A DNA stretch of 64,000 bases from Lactiplantibacillus dongliensis (GTDB lineage Bacteria > Bacillota > Bacilli > Lactobacillales > Lactobacillaceae), in the NCBI RefSeq assembly GCF_005405105.1, contig NZ_BJDK01000014.1:1-64000 (forward strand). Direction: 5' to 3'. Shown piece by piece: positions 2,501 through 58,243 of the stretch. Numbering within the stretch: position 1 is the stretch's first letter; each line of letters opens with the position of its first letter. The position numbers and the translations under genes were made by a program. Below the pieces are notes generated by a model. It did no database searches, was not told the origin of the DNA, and was given only the letters and a program-made list of their open reading frames with translations.

Positions 2501-2521
2501 TCACTTGTGATAAGGAGATCC
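2501..2521 (-). repeat. att-like direct repeat of the rlmH 3' end (distal copy)
   Basis: TCACTTGTGATA, one mismatch, GGAGA, one mismatch, CC: 19 of 21 bases match 6882-6902, in the same orientation. On the minus strand it reads GlySerProTyrHisLys-stop, exactly the RlmH C-terminus, but an upstream in-frame stop shows that no rlmH gene precedes it. It is interpreted as the distal junction of an element inserted at rlmH. Confidence 0.65.
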
Positions 2522-2603
2522 GTACCATGTTTAATCGCCATTTGTGAGTACAGAGACTCATACCATTAAGTAACCTTCTTCCAATGTATATTCATGACCA
2601 TAT

Positions 2604-2640
2604 AAAAGGGAACGTCTTCATTTTGACGTCCCCCTTTATT
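2604..2640. terminator. Terminator at the end of the island operon
   Basis: AAAGGGAACGTC (2605-2616) pairs with GACGTCCCCCTTT (2625-2637), with an AT-rich tail on both sides. It follows the stop of the HTH-ImmA gene on the minus strand. Confidence 0.6.
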
Positions 2641-2664
2641 TTTTTAACTGATAACCGCTAAAAA

Positions 2665-3852
2665 TCATCTTTCAAATTTATATGGTTTCATACTGAGAGA
2701 CACAACTTTCCCCTCAGTATGATCAAAATAATTATCTGGTAAAGAGGCCAAATTTGTAAGCATCTGATTAGGATACCGCACTCCATATTCACGACTAATA
2801 TTGTCAGGTATATCATTAGCGTTTACAACTTTATTATTAACTATCATTTTTGTACCCATTTCTAAAGCTGTGGGTGTCTTAAATTTAAAATCATTGTCAT
2901 ACGGTTCTTGTTTCCGATATCCACGATAGCTAATTTGCTTATAGTACTTAATATATTGATTATCATTAATCACTCCTAGTTCCCTCATACGATGTACGAT
3001 AGCAGAACCAGCTACGAACCAATATTTCTTTTTTTCGAAAATAGAATTCAATGTATCATAGGAATTAACTGTTTGGCGAAACGAATGTTCCGGTAATAAA
3101 AATGCCGCTGCAAAATTATTAGCTTGTTTTTCCATTTTACGATACTCATTATTGGTTAATTCTTGTGGATCCCAAGTATTTGCATGCAACAACCAATGTC
3201 CTAACTCATGTGCTGCCGAGAACTGTTCTCTAAAAAAAGAAGTTTCTGGAGCAAGAAGAATCGTATAATGTTTCCGATCGTCTATATCTCGATATGATCC
3301 AAACGCATCAACTTTCTCCATTCTTTTAGGGAGTATCACTACTAAAAAACCGTGTTGCTCAAGCAGATTCACCATATTACTTATTGGCTTTTCACCTAAA
3401 TTCCATTTTACTCTCAACCATCGTGCTACCTGTTCAACTTCTCCAATACTACTATCTAAATCAACATTCACCAAATCATCAGTTTTATTTAACTTCGATA
3501 ATTCTGGAAATTCAACATACTTCTCTAAATAATCTCTATAGATTGTAGATGCTTCAGCAAGCATACGAGATGGTGCTTTCTGTTTTTGAGTACTTGTCAA
3601 TAATGATCTATAAAACGTACCCCCATTCTGTATGTCAACCTTATCCCTATCTAAGAAAAAATCTTTAGGAAATTTCAAAACTTGAATCATTCTAAAAAAG
3701 ATTTCGCTACCCGGCTTTGATTTATTGTTTTCGTACTTTGAGACCATTTGCTTTGAAACCTCTAAATCTTGAGCAAGTTTTGTTATGGATTTCGAATTAT
3801 AATACCTGGCTTCTTTAAGCCTTTTTCCATTAAATGATTCTATCAAGATCAA
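2665..3852 (-). CDS. XRE helix-turn-helix / ImmA-IrrE metallopeptidase fusion protein
   Basis: 395 residues. Residues ~8-65 form a Cro/XRE helix-turn-helix (RLKEARYYNSKSITKLAQDL, then SKQMVSKYENNKSKPGSE). Residues ~130-260 form an ImmA/IrrE-type Zn peptidase with HELGH at 215-219 and a likely third ligand in MEKQANNFAAAFLLP (Glu ~241). The start is TTG at 3852, chosen for GAGG at 3862-3859, 6 nt upstream. The upstream gene ends 12 nt before it, so they form one operon. ImmA-type enzymes cleave repressors or DdrO-like regulators, and fusions to XRE domains are common in phage, ICE and stress-response loci. The target here is unknown. Island location and low GC suggest acquisition by transfer. 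Confidence 0.85.
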   Translation of the reverse strand: MILIESFNGKRLKEARYYNSKSITKLAQDLEVSKQMVSKYENNKSKPGSEIFFRMIQVLKFPKDFFLDRDKVDIQNGGTFYRSLLTSTQKQKAPSRMLAEASTIYRDYLEKYVEFPELSKLNKTDDLVNVDLDSSIGEVEQVARWLRVKWNLGEKPISNMVNLLEQHGFLVVILPKRMEKVDAFGSYRDIDDRKHYTILLAPETSFFREQFSAAHELGHWLLHANTWDPQELTNNEYRKMEKQANNFAAAFLLPEHSFRQTVNSYDTLNSIFEKKKYWFVAGSAIVHRMRELGVINDNQYIKYYKQISYRGYRKQEPYDNDFKFKTPTALEMGTKMIVNNKVVNANDIPDNISREYGVRYPNQMLTNLASLPDNYFDHTEGKVVSLSMKPYKFER

Positions 3853-3864
3853 TCAAATCCTCAT

Positions 3865-4614
3865 CTATTTATTGTCATTTTTTTCTACCTCATCACTTGG
3901 CCCAGGATTGTCATTTCTTTTTTCAGATCGCAACTTCAACGGAATATCTTTCTCGGCTACTTCTGACATATCAGGGCTATCAGAGGTATTTATTGTCAAC
4001 TGTTCAATAGACATATCTCCTTGAACAATATCGGAAGAAACTTCTACTTCACCTAAAAGTTGTTTATGGCCATCATACTTTTGTAACTCCGCATTTACAA
4101 TACCCTCTTGAACCTCATACGATAAAACATAAAATTGATGCAACTGATCGTAAAGATCACCAAAGAATTCTCTTGTCAGTTCTTCATCAGAATTACTTTC
4201 AATTTTTGCATCATTGGTTTTACCAAACAATACTGTTTGTCCCAAAAGGTTCTTACCGCTATTGATCACACCAGAGATACGCCAAATAAAATGATTATAG
4301 CGCTTTGCTTGATTCAAAGTAGCTTTTTTAATGCAAATAAAGCCACTTTGCGCTTCCGCATCAAAAACAACTCGATAATCATTTCCACCATGACTACATA
4401 CGAAGATCTGAATATCACCAATATCAATGTCTACCATGGCATTATTCAAATTTTCTTCAGTTCTAACACGGCCCCGTGAATTAAAAACAGAAGTATTTTC
4501 AAAGCCTGAAATCAACTGCTGGATAGAATTCAAATCTTCCTCATTACCAGATGCCAAAACTTCTTTAACAATTTTACTACTATTTAAAATAGTATCACTT
4601 ACTTCTAAAACCAT
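3865..4614 (-). CDS. Island protein of unknown function, partner of the HTH-ImmA gene
   Basis: 249 residues that I do not recognise. Residues ~1-55 look helical. Residues ~60-170 look mixed alpha/beta (VDIDIGDIQIFVCSHGG, YRVVFDAEAQSGFICIKK, FIWRISGVI). From about residue 215 the tail is charged, low-complexity and probably disordered (KRNDNPGPSDEVEKNDNK). There is no signal peptide or membrane segment. The start at 4614 has AAAAGGAGTGG just upstream. It is first in a two-gene operon with the ImmA-type peptidase, so it is the natural candidate substrate, sensor or effector partner (inference). Confidence 0.7.
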   Translation of the reverse strand: MVLEVSDTILNSSKIVKEVLASGNEEDLNSIQQLISGFENTSVFNSRGRVRTEENLNNAMVDIDIGDIQIFVCSHGGNDYRVVFDAEAQSGFICIKKATLNQAKRYNHFIWRISGVINSGKNLLGQTVLFGKTNDAKIESNSDEELTREFFGDLYDQLHQFYVLSYEVQEGIVNAELQKYDGHKQLLGEVEVSSDIVQGDMSIEQLTINTSDSPDMSEVAEKDIPLKLRSEKRNDNPGPSDEVEKNDNK

Positions 4615-5170
4615 ACAGCCACTCCTTTTAGAATTTCACTAAATAAAGTCAACCAGTGCCAGATAAATACTTATATGCCGCGGCGTAGTTGCTTAGTTAA
4701 TTCTACCACACTTCATTTTCATACAGTGTCTAATTGTTCATAAAAAACAGATTTTCACCGCTAATCATATACTAAAGAGTACTCCAATAAATATAATGAG
4801 CATCAACAGTATAAGTTAATTAGTTAAAATTATAACTGAGCCGCAACGAGAGTCTTTAAGGCATATATTACTCTATACTCACAGTTTTATTATTGTCAGC
4901 ATCCACCATATACAAATAATTGTATACAGAAAGAGAAGCTCTCTTAATTACACTTAAGAACTCCTCTTTGTAGTTGAATTATTCTATGGTCGATGCTAAA
5001 CTCAAACTGTATTATAGTGTTTAAGTTATAAAATCTAGGCCTGCGATTATCAACCATTTAGTTTCTGATTTTAAGACTACTCCAATAGCCCAGGTTAGAA
5101 ACTAGTACAAAAAGTTTGCTAAGAGTATCGCCTTCTTTCATGGGTAGCATTCGTCCGATGCTATCCTTTT
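4615..5170. other. Non-coding AT-rich stretch inside the island
   Basis: No convincing gene on either strand. It should contain the promoter of the two-gene operon to its left, although I cannot pick one with confidence. At its right end is a rho-independent terminator that points to the plus strand, although no plus-strand gene is present. Confidence 0.5.
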
Positions 5171-5172
5171 TT
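5142..5172 (+). terminator. Plus-strand terminator with no visible gene upstream
   Basis: GGGTAGCAT pairs with ATGCTATCC around a 7-nt loop and is followed by six T on the plus strand. On the minus strand no T-run follows the hairpin, so it does not suit the minus-strand gene that ends at 5171. Confidence 0.55.
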
Positions 5173-6091
5173 ATTCACTAATCCACTTAGCTTCCTGAAC
5201 ATGTTCCTTAAAATCTTCAAAAGATATTTTGTTAAGATGCCTAATCAGATCAAACACCTTTTTTCCATTACTATTTATCTTTCTCGCTGTCAATTGAGTC
5301 AGATCAAATATCGTTCCTACAGCTATCCCATCTGGTTCAACAGCACTTTCCGAAAATAAATCTTCATTTTCCAAAGAATTGAACCAGAAATAAGGTGTTT
5401 CACTTGGAAAGTCATCGGCAACATTACCAAGATGACCTACACCTGCAGAAAGTTCAATCGTTGCAAAGCAATATACTACAGGTACATCTTCAGCATCTTC
5501 TTTTCTATAATTTAGATTGGGTTTTAGAACGATTACTAACAAATTATAAGGATCCGAATACTTGCTATCTTTACCTTTACGCCATTGGAATAAGTGTAGT
5601 ATCCTAACAATGCTGTTATTCGTAAATTCAGCCATTTTCTTCACTTTAGCTACTAAATCCTCCACACTCGCACCTTTTGCACTCGATTGCTTTACGTCCC
5701 AAACGTAATCTGATGTCGGCTGCAGGAAAGTACTGGAGCTCTTATGTTTATTATGAGTCCTAACAATTAATCCCAAGTCTTGCAAGTCACTGTTCCACGA
5801 ATTAATACTACGTTCAGTAGTTTTTAATTTTTCAGCCATTGTTTGTATAGATGGCCAAGACTCACCCGTTTCATTTCCAGACTTGATTGCATACAACAGA
5901 TACAATCTGATAGCACCTGCAGATAAAAAAGGTAGGTAATCTTCAAAACCGCTAAACAACATAAAAAATCCTTTAACCTGTTCTTGAGAAAACTTTCGCC
6001 AGATCGCATACTGTCCACTTAAAATGTTATCTTCACTTTGCATCTTAGCAAACCCTAATCCAAATTCGTTAAGTCCATATTCTTTACTCAA
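5171..6091 (-). CDS. Winged-helix domain protein, possibly replication-initiator-like
   Basis: 306 residues. Residues ~60-115 resemble the winged helix-turn-helix of phage and plasmid replication-organiser proteins (LSAGAIRLYLLYAIKSG, SWPSIQTMAEKLKTTERSIN, LQDLGLIVR). The remainder is unfamiliar and has no visible ATPase or nuclease motif. The ATG at 6091 is preceded by an AAAGGGAAT-type ribosome binding site. It is a single gene inside the rlmH island. A replication or regulatory role for the element is plausible, but I cannot choose between them. Codon and base composition are AT-rich compared with the neighbouring chromosome. Confidence 0.7.
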   Translation of the reverse strand: MSKEYGLNEFGLGFAKMQSEDNILSGQYAIWRKFSQEQVKGFFMLFSGFEDYLPFLSAGAIRLYLLYAIKSGNETGESWPSIQTMAEKLKTTERSINSWNSDLQDLGLIVRTHNKHKSSSTFLQPTSDYVWDVKQSSAKGASVEDLVAKVKKMAEFTNNSIVRILHLFQWRKGKDSKYSDPYNLLVIVLKPNLNYRKEDAEDVPVVYCFATIELSAGVGHLGNVADDFPSETPYFWFNSLENEDLFSESAVEPDGIAVGTIFDLTQLTARKINSNGKKVFDLIRHLNKISFEDFKEHVQEAKWISE

Positions 6092-6680
6092 CTCATATCC
6101 ATTCCCTTTCCTTCACTTTATAGGTTACAATATACTATTAGAATTTCATGCTGTAAAGAAGCCGTGTCGTTTGTATTTTCCACAATATACGAAGCTGATT
6201 TCACAATAACTATATTACTAGACAGCTAACGTAAACTCACTAAACTGGCTAAACGTCAAACTAACATAACAAATGCTGGGAAGTTCAATATCACCAGCTC
6301 ACTGCAAACTTCTGCAGCCTCATGCAGCTTATTGCCTACCTGTACTTAACTATCTCATTTATTAATGGTCACCCGTTTTACCGCTAATTTCGAAATACAG
6401 TGAATTATTACAACGAAAAGACTATCCCATTGTAAAAAAAGCGCTTACCATACTAAATACCCTACTTAAAGTATTTATAGGTAGAGTGGCACGATATCGG
6501 CTTTGAACCAACAGGCGAAACAATTAGGCTAATCCTTGATAGTAGAAAAATTGTATATGCTGATCAACTTACAGAAACTAATCGCTGACTTCTTCAAGGG
6601 TAGTGATCAATACAGCCTCTTTTAACTTCATCCGACAAGAAAAAGGACCTGTGACATAACTAGCCCTCAAAAAGTGAAAT
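6092..6680. other. Decayed island sequence without intact genes
   Basis: No intact gene with a start and ribosome binding site. The only protein-like stretch is the remnant at 6481-6588. The rest is AT-rich and has frequent stops on both strands. Confidence 0.5.
6481..6588 (+). pseudogene. Possible gene remnant (35 codons, no start)
   Basis: An open stretch reads VEWHDIGFEPTGETIRLILD and continues for 15 further residues to a TGA at 6586-6588. It has a protein-like composition but no start codon, and a stop lies directly upstream. It may be the tail of a lost island gene. The family is not recognised. Confidence 0.3.
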
Positions 6681-6848
6681 GAGTCTGGGACAAAACTCCC
6701 AGTTCACATCAAAAACGGTAGTTCTGAGAAGTACCAATAAAACGGCGACCACTAATCCTTCAATGATATTCTATCATCAAAAAGGTTAGTGATCGCCGTT
6801 TTCATATTTTTGGGTGTTCGACAACACATGAATGTCTGTCCCAGACTC
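6681..6848. repeat. Foldback repeat GAGTCTGGGACA, adjacent to rlmH
   Basis: Perfect 12-bp ends GAGTCTGGGACA (6681-6692) and TGTCCCAGACTC (6837-6848) enclose a second long stem, 6739-6760 with 6781-6802 (19 of 22 identical, counting from AAAACGGCGA). It is related to the element at 2246-2427. It probably also acts as a transcription stop downstream of rlmH. Confidence 0.7.
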
Positions 6849-6881
6849 TGTCTATAATCAGAGCATGCAGTAAAAATAACG

Positions 6882-6902
6882 TCACTTGTGATACGGAGAC
6901 CC
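6882..6902 (-). repeat. att-like direct repeat at the rlmH 3' end (gene-proximal copy)
   Basis: It encodes the last residues GSPYHK and the TGA stop of rlmH and matches 2501-2521 at 19 of 21 positions. It is the gene-side junction of the presumed island. Confidence 0.65.
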
Positions 6903-7361
6903 AATATTAATCATAAACGCCCGATAAACCTGCTCCGACAACACCAACCGCATCAACTGATGGGGCAACGTAAACCGTCCAAACGAAATCTGCGTATCTG
7001 CCCGTTGTAAGACTTCTGGTGCCAACCCTAATGAGCCACCAATGACAAAGTCAATATCGCTATGCCCATAAGTCGTCAGCTTATCGATCTCGGCGGCGAA
7101 CTCTTCACTGGTTCGTTCCTTACCTTTAATCGCCAGCGCATACACATAGTCGCGATCCTTGATCTTCTCCAGAATCCGCTGGCCTTCCTTATCCATGACA
7201 TTAGCCATCTCTGCGTTACTTAATGACTCGGGGGCCTTTTCATCGGGAACCTCGACAATTTGGAATTTTGCAAATTTACTCATGCGTTTCGCATATTCTG
7301 CAATCCCCTGTTTAAAATATTTTTCCTTTAATTTTCCGACACAGATAATTTTGATGTTCAT
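6882..7361 (-). CDS. rlmH: 23S rRNA pseudouridine-1915 N3-methyltransferase RlmH
   Basis: 159 residues, the usual length of this SPOUT-fold enzyme, which methylates pseudouridine 1915 in helix 69 of 23S rRNA using SAM. It starts [16 protein letters not shown]. The knotted SAM-binding part is near the C-terminus ([39 protein letters not shown]), and the protein ends in the conserved YHK. The ATG at 7361 follows GGTGG. It is the last gene of a leftward-reading group after htrA. Its 3' end forms one junction of the adjacent island, and the reading frame is intact, as expected of an element that restores the target on insertion. Confidence 0.95.
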
Positions 7362-7857
7362 AATTAACCACCTTTACACAAGTTATTAACAAAGTTATCC
7401 ACAGGTGCATAACTCAATTTGCTACATGTTGTGTTGAACGTATGTTTGCCACAACATTTATTTTGACCGGTTTTGTCAATAGCCCGTCACTTTATCCACA
7501 GTTATTAACAGCAACATTTGTTCGTAGTTCCCGGTTACAAACCCTATTATATCAACAATCTAGTTTGATTAAAATAAATTTCTAAAATTTAATCCACAGC
7601 ATTTTTGATCGCTTGTGGATAACTTTTAAACACCCAGAATTGCCGGGCTAGCGCCTGTTCATAAATTTCCATCCGCGACCATCAAAGTTATCCCCGAAGT
7701 TGTCCACAGTTTTACCCCGCCTATCAAATCGGTAAAAAATGGTTTCCGGATGACCGACTCAGTTTGTTCGGATTCTTTCATAATTATATCGGTTTCATCG
7801 TCTAAATAGGCTTTTTTGAAAGATGAATTTTCGGTTTTTCCAATTTTGGTCGCAAAA
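7362..7857. other. DnaA-box cluster away from oriC
   Basis: The gap between rlmH and htrA holds three perfect TTATCCACA boxes: 7395-7403 and 7492-7500 on plus, 7614-7622 on minus. It also has one-mismatch boxes at 7590-7598 (TAATCCACA) and 7700-7708 (TTGTCCACA), plus weaker TTATTAACA sites at 7383-7391 and 7502-7510 and TTATCCCCG at 7688-7696. No coding potential is seen. It lies about 46 kb from dnaA, so it is either a DnaA titration/regulatory site or a DnaA-controlled promoter for rlmH. Confidence 0.7.
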
Positions 7858-7888
7858 AGCGCCGGAACGGCATTACCGCTCCGGCGCT
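7858..7888 (-). terminator. Terminator of the wal-htrA operon
   Basis: AGCGCCGGA (7858-7866) pairs with TCCGGCGCT (7880-7888), with an inner CGG/CCG. On the minus strand the stem is followed by TTTTT. It lies 20 nt past the htrA stop. Confidence 0.8.
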
Positions 7889-7907
7889 CTTATGAAAGCT
7901 TAATCAT

Positions 7908-9182
7908 TTAATTGGATTGTTTAGTTAACGCTTTGGTAGTTTCGGTTAACTTCATCGTTGTACGCTTTAGTTTCCCGTTGTGATAGTACTTCACACTAAC
8001 CGTATCGTTCACCTGATGGTCATATAAAGCCGTCCGCAACGTTGCTAGACTCGTAATCTTCTTACCACCTAATTCGGTAATAACATCATACTTCGTCAAG
8101 CCAGCTTTCTTCGCCGGTGACCCCGTATAGGTCTTCATAATAACGACCCCTTTAGTCACACTCGTTGGCAGCTTCAAGACTGATTTACGATCACTCGCTT
8201 GAATATTGGACAAGTTATACGTCGCAACCCCTAAGGCTGGCCGAACGACTTCACCGTTCTTGACTAACTCATTGATGATCTTCACAACTTCATTACTTGG
8301 AATTGCAAAGCCCATCCCTTCAACGCTCGTCCCAGAACTATCGGATGACAGCTTCATCGAATTAATCCCGACGACTTGACCTGCTAAGTTAAATAGCGGT
8401 CCGCCAGAGTTCCCAGGGTTAATCGCGGCATCAGTTTGGATAACCGTCGCATAACCGGTTTGTTGTCCGGAGGTATTGGTCGTGGCAATCGTCCGTTTCT
8501 TAGCGGAAATAATCCCTTCCGTCAAAGTCGTCGCGTAGTTAGAGCCTAACGGTGACCCGATTGCTAAGGCACTTTCACCCACTTCGATGCTATCCGAGTT
8601 CCCGAAACTGGCAATCTTAGAAACCTTGGCCGCATTAATCTTTAAAACGGCTAAGTCGGTCACAGAATCGGTCCCGACTAACTTAGCGCTGAGCTTGGTG
8701 CCATCACTCATAATGACGCGAATCGCGTTAGAGCCACTTACCACGTGATTATTCGTCACGATATACGCAGCACTACCACTCTTCTTATAGATCAAGCCAG
8801 AGCCTTCACTATATTCCTGCAACTTACTGTTACTGCTAGAAGACCCAGAATTTGAATTTGACCCATCACTATCCGATGAGCCGTCATCGCCGCCTAAGAT
8901 CCCACTCCAGCCACTAGACGTATTTTGCTTTTGCAAGTTAATCACGGAAACGACAGCGGCCTTATTATCCTTAAAGACCTTCGTTGCTTGCGAGCTCACA
9001 TTAACTTTTACATTGGTCGTTGAAGTTGAGCCCGACTTGTTAGAGCCGGTCGGTACACTGGTTGAAGACGTGGAGACATTATTATTACTCATGTAATTAA
9101 TCCCGCCATAAGCGACCCCGCCACCTAACAAACCGGCGACAAGTGCGGTCACCGCCACTTTAACTAATGAATTATTTGCCAT
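7908..9182 (-). CDS. htrA: HtrA/DegP-type membrane-anchored serine protease
   Basis: 424 residues. A hydrophobic segment at ~8-28 anchors the protein. A Ser/Gly/Asp-rich linker (~90-120) precedes a trypsin-like domain with catalytic His146 (VTNNHVV), Asp176 (DLAVLKI) and Ser259 (GNSGGPL). One PDZ domain occupies ~315-410. It degrades or refolds misfolded exported proteins at the outer face of the membrane. The start at 9182 is preceded by GGGAGGGAAC. It is the last gene of the walRKHIJ group, the usual position in lactobacilli, and probably shares its envelope-stress regulation. A 114-bp gap before it leaves room for an internal promoter. Confidence 0.94.
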   Translation of the reverse strand: MANNSLVKVAVTALVAGLLGGGVAYGGINYMSNNNVSTSSTSVPTGSNKSGSTSTTNVKVNVSSQATKVFKDNKAAVVSVINLQKQNTSSGWSGILGGDDGSSDSDGSNSNSGSSSSNSKLQEYSEGSGLIYKKSGSAAYIVTNNHVVSGSNAIRVIMSDGTKLSAKLVGTDSVTDLAVLKINAAKVSKIASFGNSDSIEVGESALAIGSPLGSNYATTLTEGIISAKKRTIATTNTSGQQTGYATVIQTDAAINPGNSGGPLFNLAGQVVGINSMKLSSDSSGTSVEGMGFAIPSNEVVKIINELVKNGEVVRPALGVATYNLSNIQASDRKSVLKLPTSVTKGVVIMKTYTGSPAKKAGLTKYDVITELGGKKITSLATLRTALYDHQVNDTVSVKYYHNGKLKRTTMKLTETTKALTKQSN

Positions 9183-33678: not shown

Positions 33679-33694
33679 TGTTTCACGTGAAACA
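33679..33694. promoter_or_regulatory. parS: parS centromere site
   Basis: A 16-bp perfect palindrome TGTTTCACGTGAAACA, identical to the conserved ParB/Spo0J loading site. It lies about 20 kb from oriC, directly upstream of the proB start. Confidence 0.9.
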
Positions 33695-39583: not shown

Positions 39584-39623
39584 ACATATTAACTTACGCT
39601 TAGTGTTAGTTGGATTAAAATGT

Positions 39624-39783
39624 CACTCTGGTTGGCCCAGAATCGGCTGGAGCGTGGTGGCCGCGTTTGGAAGCCAAGGGGCGGCCTTCCAAGCCGGGCT
39701 TTATCTAAGTCGGAAAATCACCGACCAAGATAAACGACACCACTGAGCCAATTCTGGTCCGCCCGCCGTTAACTAACGGGACT
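39624..39783 (+). repeat. Dispersed foldback repeat R1, long copy
   Basis: It starts CACTCTGGTTGGCCCAGAAT and ends near GCCGTTAACTAACGGGA. The outer arms CCAGAATCGGCT and AGCCAATTCTGG enclose further stems (GGAAGCC..GGCCTTCC, GTCGG/CCGAC, TTATCT/AGATAA). It is related to 20105-20255 (inverted) and 33713-33793 (short). Confidence 0.7.
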
Positions 39784-39837
39784 TAAAAAATTAACAATTG
39801 ATTATTTTAAGTTCAGTTATTTAGCCGAGAGGTTGGC

Positions 39838-39905
39838 TTCAAAATAGCCCATGGTATTCCAGCATTTTAGAATCCAACCGGCAGGCGGCAATTTCAACCA
39901 GCACC
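39838..39905 (+). repeat. Dispersed repeat R2, copy 1
   Basis: It shares AAAATRGYCCATSGT, TTYCAGCATTTTAGAA, CAACC and GGCARYNATTTYAACC with 51937-52001 in the same orientation. Confidence 0.5.
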
Positions 39906-53493: not shown

Positions 53494-53666
53494 AAGGTAT
53501 CCTCTCTTCTTGGTGACACGGGTTTATATAGATTAATAAATAAAAGATCGTAGTAATAGTAGGGCAGTGGGTACTGTGGAAAAGTTTTGTAACCCTACTA
53601 ACCATCGAGTTTTCCACATGTGTATAAGTTGTGGAAAACTTTTAGAGTTATTAGAATTTATCCACA
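53494..53666 (-). other. oriC: Origin part 2: dnaA-dnaN gap with basal unwinding module
   Basis: DnaA boxes: TTATCCACA 53658-53666 (perfect, ends at the dnaA stop), TTTTCCACA 53610-53618, and minus-strand TGTGGAAAA 53575-53583 and 53630-53638. Next to the box at 53575 comes a GC-rich spacer (53563-53574), then the DnaA-trio TAGTAATAGTAG (53551-53562), then an AT-rich stretch (53523-53549). This box/GC/trio/AT order is the Bacillus-type unwinding system. Confidence 0.8.
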
Positions 53667-55028: not shown

Positions 55029-55380
55029 ATGGATACCCCTTTTCTTAAAAAACGTAAGTCTATTTTAGCATGAACGTTAAAAGTTTTCCACAGGCGGGTG
55101 ATAAGAATGTTAATTGAAATCACAAGCTGTTTTTAAAGTTATACACAGGGTGTCAAAAACTGGAGGATTTTGGAGAAAACCAGAGTTGTCCACAAAATCT
55201 TGGTTAAAAGTGGCCCTAATAACACAACGTTTCCAAAGGTTATGCACACAAAATAAAGACGCTGTGGATAACTAAATCACACCCCGTTATTTTGTCGATA
55301 AGGTTGTGTGTAACTTGGGGACAGTCAAAAGACGATTCACAATCATCCACAGGCCTAACCACAAATTACGCGCCAAATGG
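55029..55380. other. oriC: Origin part 1: DnaA-box cluster upstream of dnaA
   Basis: DnaA boxes: TTTTCCACA 55084-55092, TTATACACA 55139-55147, TTGTCCACA 55186-55194, TTATGCACA 55240-55248, minus-strand perfect TGTGGATAA 55263-55271, a weaker TGTGTGTAA 55305-55313, and TCATCCACA 55343-55351. With the dnaA-dnaN gap it forms a bipartite origin. The dnaA promoter must also lie here. Confidence 0.85.
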
Positions 55381-58162: not shown

Positions 58163-58243
58163 TAATCATTCTTATCTTTTAGATAAAGTAGTCAAAGTGC
58201 TTTATCCACGCTTTAAGGTGGCGTGGACTAGGCGCTTTTTTTC
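58163..58243 (+). ncRNA. Candidate small RNA between jag and mnmE
   Basis: It would start about 7 nt after the promoter and end at a strong rho-independent terminator: AAGTGC (58195-58200) with GCGCTT (58232-58237), and inside it CCACGC with GCGTGG, then seven T. Its length is about 80 nt. No reading frame with a ribosome binding site is visible. I do not recognise an Rfam family. Confidence 0.5.

Follow-up and report, generated by a model that had tools for sequence, protein, structure and literature searches.

Background

The closest described counterparts of the locus studied here are the clusters of DnaA boxes that Bacillus subtilis carries outside its origin of replication. A genome-wide in vitro study counts the region upstream of yydA, which spans yyzF, among eight regions prominently bound by DnaA, of which oriC accounts for two; the yydA region has seven putative sites within 300 bp and binds ATP-DnaA with an apparent Kd of 0.16 µM (PMC4447404). 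Removal of six clusters outside oriC is reported to cause early initiation (PMC5295017, PMC13220808), and by subtraction (eight regions less the two in oriC) we infer that yydA is among these six. The role of such clusters in Gram-positive bacteria is nonetheless unsettled, a strong effect being described only upon removal of the six (PMC5295017). A roughly 10-fold excess of DnaA is likewise stated to produce no over-initiation (PMC13220808), which counts against reading the clusters as a sink. According to a review, yyzF-yydABCD is directly regulated by DnaA (PMC8203912). In Escherichia coli, the datA locus restrains initiation, needs IHF, and promotes hydrolysis of DnaA-bound ATP (PMC5295017); B. 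subtilis is described as having no IHF (PMC13220808).

Here, we analysed a stretch of 64,000 nucleotides from Lactiplantibacillus dongliensis (the window), in which a dense group of DnaA boxes lies between htrA and rlmH. We take yydA to be the same gene as rlmH, an assumption supported by the locus of B. mojavensis (L233), where a YyzF protein (PF14116, E 2.7e-19) directly precedes RlmH (PF02590) and perfect boxes are found at -354, -320, and -140 of rlmH. The window resembles the B. subtilis yydA region in having rlmH as a neighbour with several TTATNCACA boxes upstream, but differs from it in that there is no recognised YyzF frame, the upstream neighbour is htrA, and binding of DnaA is a prediction from sequence; by tblastn, yyzF was found at 119 of 265 loci. 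Like datA, it is a non-coding cluster of DnaA boxes, whereas IHF dependence and ATP hydrolysis are features of datA. The trmE/jag DnaA-binding region of B. subtilis also lies near oriC and is a further cluster of the same box; unlike that region, the window has no perfect box upstream of mnmE (trmE) and one mismatched box at 58202. Among 30 genomes, 11 carried at least two perfect boxes upstream of mnmE (one of nine in the window's order), a comparison biased toward rlmH because all 30 had been picked as rlmH-positive (30/30 versus 11/30). Finally, the cluster shares box sequence and density with the bipartite oriC of Bacilli but has neither a DnaA-trio nor a skew switch. A narrow search of open-licence literature returned no report of the cluster outside B. 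subtilis; its kind and place are already known, and it is the breadth across the class and the persistence after separation from rlmH that we did not find in the literature searched.

A dense cluster of DnaA boxes between htrA and rlmH

The first-pass annotation of the window had claimed a cluster of boxes in both orientations in the gap between htrA and rlmH, about 46 kb from oriC and with a density rivalling that of the origin, and all of these points were borne out. Region 7383-7708 contains three perfect TTATNCACA and six one-mismatch boxes, nine in total (Table 1), and none of 2000 dinucleotide shuffles of this stretch attained either three perfect or nine total boxes (means 0.05 and 0.71). 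Ranking 326-bp stretches across the window placed this region first (three perfect, nine total), followed by those upstream of dnaA (three, eight) and between dnaA and dnaN (two, five)—that is, no stretch is denser, oriC included—and in 200 shuffles of the whole window no stretch ever held more than two perfect boxes. Given the position of dnaA, the cluster therefore lies 46-48 kb from oriC. One-mismatch boxes across the entire window were at chance level (71 versus 68 expected), so the signal resides in the clustering and in the perfect boxes. In the whole genome (3.1 Mb, 71 contigs), TTATCCACA occurs 41 times, compared with 13 occurrences of the reversed pattern. A search of 6800-8000 against Rfam gave no match up to E 1.

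Table 1. Positions of the DnaA boxes and neighbouring features in the window; offsets are relative to rlmH
Feature	Position	Strand	Evidence or remark
rlmH	6882..7361	-	SPOUT_MTase, PF02590, E 3.3e-58
DnaA-box cluster	7383..7708		Between htrA and rlmH (both minus strand); box density versus shuffles
Weaker box TTATTAACA	7383..7391	+	-30; perfect TTATNCACA in three relatives; 12-bp step to 7395
DnaA box TTATCCACA, perfect	7395..7403	+	-42; perfect at the same place in 19/19 same-genus genomes
Weaker box TTATGCACC	7404..7412	-	-51; one mismatch
Conserved dyad among boxes (TGTTGTG, 16 bp, CACAACA)	7427..7456	-	At most one mismatch per arm in 19/19 same-genus genomes
DnaA box TTATCCACA, perfect	7492..7500	+	-139; perfect at the same place in 19/19 same-genus genomes
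Weaker box TTATTAACA	7502..7510	+	-149; one mismatch
Near-perfect box TAATCCACA	7590..7598	+	-237; one mismatch
DnaA box TTATCCACA, perfect	7614..7622	-	-261; perfect TTATNCACA in 19/19 same-genus genomes, one at -260
Weaker box TTATGAACA	7656..7664	-	-303; one mismatch
Near-perfect box TTGTCCACA	7700..7708	+	-347; perfect TTATNCACA in several relatives
Terminator-like hairpin 3' of htrA	7860..7872	-	Two terminator-like sites in 6700-8000 versus 0.9 expected
htrA-type protease gene	7908..9182	-	Trypsin_2, PDZ_2
oriC part between dnaA and dnaN	53551..53666		DnaA-trio TAGTAATAGTAG at 53551, boxes 53575-53666
dnaA	53667..55028	-	Named from sequence and place
oriC part upstream of dnaA, boxes	55084..55351		Box counts

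Conservation within the genus and across Bacilli

The three perfect boxes are fixed in the genus, recurring at -42, -139, and -261 of rlmH in all 19 genomes (at -260 in one), and the other boxes vary. Across an alignment of these genomes, 73% of columns in boxes were invariant, versus 35% elsewhere in the same 360 bp; in the same alignment we also picked by eye an extended -10-like TGATATAAT near -190.

At the level of the class, rlmH was present in 388 of 398 genomes of Bacilli, and we surveyed 185 rlmH loci from part of these 388—100 picked by hand for genus spread and the remainder in three batches of 30, 25, and 30, the last drawn from a set of 80 genomes of which 70 were fetched. At least two perfect boxes within 600 bp upstream of rlmH, our criterion for a positive locus, were found at 114 of the 185 loci, in 66 of 130 genera and 31 of 58 families. 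Corresponding counts were 3/185 in the control stretch 900-1500 bp upstream (in which L117 could not be counted, its sequence being too short) and 0/185 for the reversed pattern. Absence was mostly family-wise, with no positive genus among six in f14, seven in f36, six in f29, and four each in f12, f15, and f46.

A set of named loci, drawn partly from the same genomes, gave a similar picture (62/80 positive). Conservation across lactobacilli, which had been proposed as a check on the initial claim, held both in the 19 same-genus genomes and among named Lactobacillaceae (L191-L213), where 21 of 23 loci had at least two perfect boxes. Further positives included Leuconostoc, five of six Enterococcus, Listeria farberi, Exiguobacterium, Lysinibacillus, and B. 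mojavensis. Perfect boxes upstream of rlmH were absent from nine of nine Paenibacillus, both Lacticaseibacillus (L211, L212), Enterococcus gallinarum, Trichococcus, Paraliobacillus, and Sedimentibacter, and a single one was present in Holzapfeliella, one Streptococcus, and one Bacillaceae. The cluster is thus dispensable, because 64 of the 130 surveyed genera had no positive locus, and among named loci all nine Paenibacillus were without one.

In the 66 positive genera, perfect boxes are biased toward one orientation (179 versus 51), and the median distance from rlmH to the start of the nearest one is 49 bp; in 60 of the 66, this nearest box has the same orientation. In L104 and L179, the boxes are located further upstream. 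Steps between same-strand neighbours were most often 13 bp (36), 8 bp (25), 12 bp (19), and 21 bp (15), and since these peak at 8 and 21 bp besides 13 and 12 bp, we claim no single phasing.

Persistence of the cluster apart from rlmH and htrA

Rearrangements in family f7 (27 genomes) separate the boxes from their usual neighbours. Ten of these genomes show htrA, boxes, and rlmH in succession, nothing having been found between them; in one more the boxes are present but htrA gave no match, and in another (L317) a span of 1500 bp contains no perfect box. In three genomes (L303-L305), marR lies between the cluster and rlmH, and in 12 of the 27, osmC and marR do so together (Pfam families assigned in L026 only). 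In these twelve, htrA shares the strand of rlmH and osmC has the opposite one, so that the two genes converge on the boxes, which are 1.0-1.4 kb from rlmH; invariant columns number 51 of 98 within the boxes and 14 of 249 outside them. G022, a genome from family f5, shows a similar arrangement: its htrA converges with a TrkA-type gene, and the gap where they meet holds four perfect boxes, at a distance of 2.3-2.5 kb from rlmH and of 400 kb from dnaA, such that the detached clusters comprise one family plus this one genome. Conversely, 12 of the 114 positive loci had no htrA match in 1500 bp (families f11, f16, f17, f21, and f33), and the boxes are therefore independent of htrA. Taken together, these loci and the detached clusters mean that boxes occur beside rlmH without htrA, and beside htrA without rlmH.

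These arrangements bear on the idea that the main purpose of the boxes is to give DnaA control over rlmH or yyzF-rlmH and so link rRNA methylation, or the operon, to replication status; the first-pass annotation, too, had suggested that rlmH may be under DnaA control. Such control would fit the proximity and shared orientation of the nearest box, the direct DnaA regulation that the review ascribes to yyzF-yydABCD in B. subtilis (PMC8203912), and the lack of dependence on htrA. It would also fit two local cases in which the boxes lie as for an operon promoter—just upstream of a same-strand 327-codon frame preceding rlmH in L074, and upstream of marR-rlmH in L303-L305. However, not every cluster lies at the promoter of rlmH or of its operon: in the twelve f7 genomes and G022, opposed genes cut it off from rlmH and convergent gene ends flank the boxes, and the detached boxes of the twelve are still constrained. 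Promoter prediction in the window region, weak as such predictions are, gave nothing above shuffles and none on the rlmH strand. Because the boxes stay constrained when cut off from the rlmH promoter, control of rlmH is not the sole reason for their conservation, and we consider it unlikely to be the chief one. As an extra role where boxes do sit at the rlmH promoter, as appears to be the case in L074 and L303-L305, it is plausible.

Upstream of rlmH, we also followed and set aside a candidate regulatory motif, obtained with an iterative matrix trained on its own matches, which was found in 60 of 210 representatives (52 at 81-120 bp upstream of rlmH). In B. mojavensis, this motif overlaps the end of yyzF, and coding constraint may thus explain its left half. 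To the eye, the conserved dyad of the window resembles a sequence that other families carry about 100 bp upstream of rlmH; its arms are one base closer together, and since the 60 matrix matches do not include it, the likeness is by eye only.

Distance from oriC and alternatives involving the origin

In 71 of 80 genomes, dnaA and rlmH were on one contig, allowing their distance to be determined (in the nine others, left out here, the genes were on different contigs or the length of the contig was not available). The two genes were 20-80 kb apart in 57 of the 71 and 2.4-2.5 kb apart in four f4 genomes. This general proximity would be expected if DnaA at the cluster were not a sink but bridged to oriC or shaped the origin-proximal domain. 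Yet where rlmH lies 82-517 kb from dnaA, seven of nine genomes with a fetched locus keep at least two perfect boxes, versus 34 of 56 positive at 20-80 kb; of the two others, G101 has one perfect and five near boxes and G173 has none. We accordingly view bridging as improbable. The retention of the cluster at 200-517 kb from dnaA also counts against a role for early duplication, because early duplication would matter less there.

A second origin-related proposal, that the cluster is a cryptic or ancestral origin, could appeal to a box density equal to that of oriC and to a 40-bp stretch of 88% A+T at 7554. We searched for the DnaA-trio motif (as the pattern TA[GA] three times or more) and found none in 7362-7907, whereas the oriC of the same window has one. 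Nor did we find a switch in GC skew at 7.4 kb, where skew is negative on both sides; the switch is near 52-53 kb. With neither trio nor skew switch, an origin at this place is very unlikely, and as far as sequence can tell we reject it.

Chance or base composition, which the shortness of the box and the chance-level frequency of one-mismatch boxes might suggest, is a negligible explanation in view of the shuffles (0/2000), the fixed positions within the genus, and the survey controls (3 and 0 of 185), and the survey refutes it.

Other features of the window and the genome

Two further regions rich in exact boxes were noted in the same genome. The first (L031, G000:C57:589-5086) has seven exact TTATCCACA in 4.5 kb, mostly within genes, and matching regions with their flanks in 13 relatives have 8, 4, 3, 2, 1, 0, 6, 5, 0, 5, 4, 0, and 0 exact boxes, partly at other positions. 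The second (L032, G000:C50:14505-15994) has four exact TTATCCACA in 1.5 kb, with three or four each in the region and flanks of seven relatives. Some of the copies in both regions form an overlapping inverted pair, TTATCCACAGTGGATAA.

Interspersed repeats were also seen. One of about 240 bp, at window 39587-39872 and at about 2787-3030 of L032, is present in tens of copies both in this genome and in G017, and the six other genomes searched gave few matches. A second repeat, of about 130 bp (about 3099-3230 of L031), has many copies in several of 14 genomes, among the matches listed. At window 33679-33694 lies TGTTTCACGTGAAACA (0.02 expected with one mismatch allowed), which perfectly matches a parS pattern.

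On the other side of rlmH, its 3' end is directly repeated across window 2501-6902 (21 bp, two mismatches; 0.00 expected), bracketing a low-GC segment, 2522-6881, that contains an RmrA-like gene (PADLOC, E 2.5e-116) and encodes an HTH_36 protein and an unknown protein. Staphylococcal SCC elements insert at the 3' end of rlmH, and this segment is perhaps an island inserted there. No recombinase was found among the three proteins examined from it, and a blastn search with the segment gave no match in up to 1.5 kb downstream of rlmH in 18 same-genus genomes (shorter in L005 and L010).

A probable non-origin DnaA-box cluster of the B. subtilis type

The cluster is dense, broadly distributed, constrained at its boxes, and, in one family, independent of the rlmH promoter. 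We favour, with a probability of roughly 60%, the reading that it is an old non-origin DnaA-box cluster at the place of B. subtilis yydA, which would bind DnaA and temper initiation, control of rlmH being secondary in some species. Its boxes are clustered outside oriC beyond chance and occupy the same genomic place as the yydA cluster, upstream of rlmH; location, conservation, and box constraint thus all support assignment to the B. subtilis type. Of the DnaA-titrating cluster originally suggested, it is this assignment that stands, while titration itself would follow by analogy.

By analogy with B. subtilis, several DnaA molecules would bind the cluster, with one orientation predominating. 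At about 46 kb from oriC, the cluster would be copied soon after initiation, and its strong DnaA sites would then double just as free DnaA must fall; sequestration by the doubled sites could help to prevent early re-initiation. Where the boxes are at the promoter of rlmH or yyzF-rlmH, DnaA may also adjust the operon as a secondary effect.

More tentatively, and as something we would entertain rather than expect, the htrA-rlmH cluster might be an autonomous replication-control locus, old in Bacilli and kept for a DnaA nucleoprotein rather than for its adjacent genes. It would then be a functional Gram-positive counterpart of datA, and one of a wider set—with the C57 and C50 box regions, in the same genus—that jointly set the initiation threshold.

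Because the boxes are found across named lactobacilli, Enterococcus, Listeria, Exiguobacterium, and Bacillus-type genomes, and remain constrained after separation from rlmH, selection appears to keep the boxes themselves. In lactobacilli, deletion strains may be simpler than in B. subtilis, and lineages that lack the cluster, such as the nine of nine named Paenibacillus, are natural knock-outs for comparison. Recurring near rlmH in many relatives, even in lineages where other genes now separate the two, the cluster is probably a long-standing component of the system by which chromosome replication is timed.
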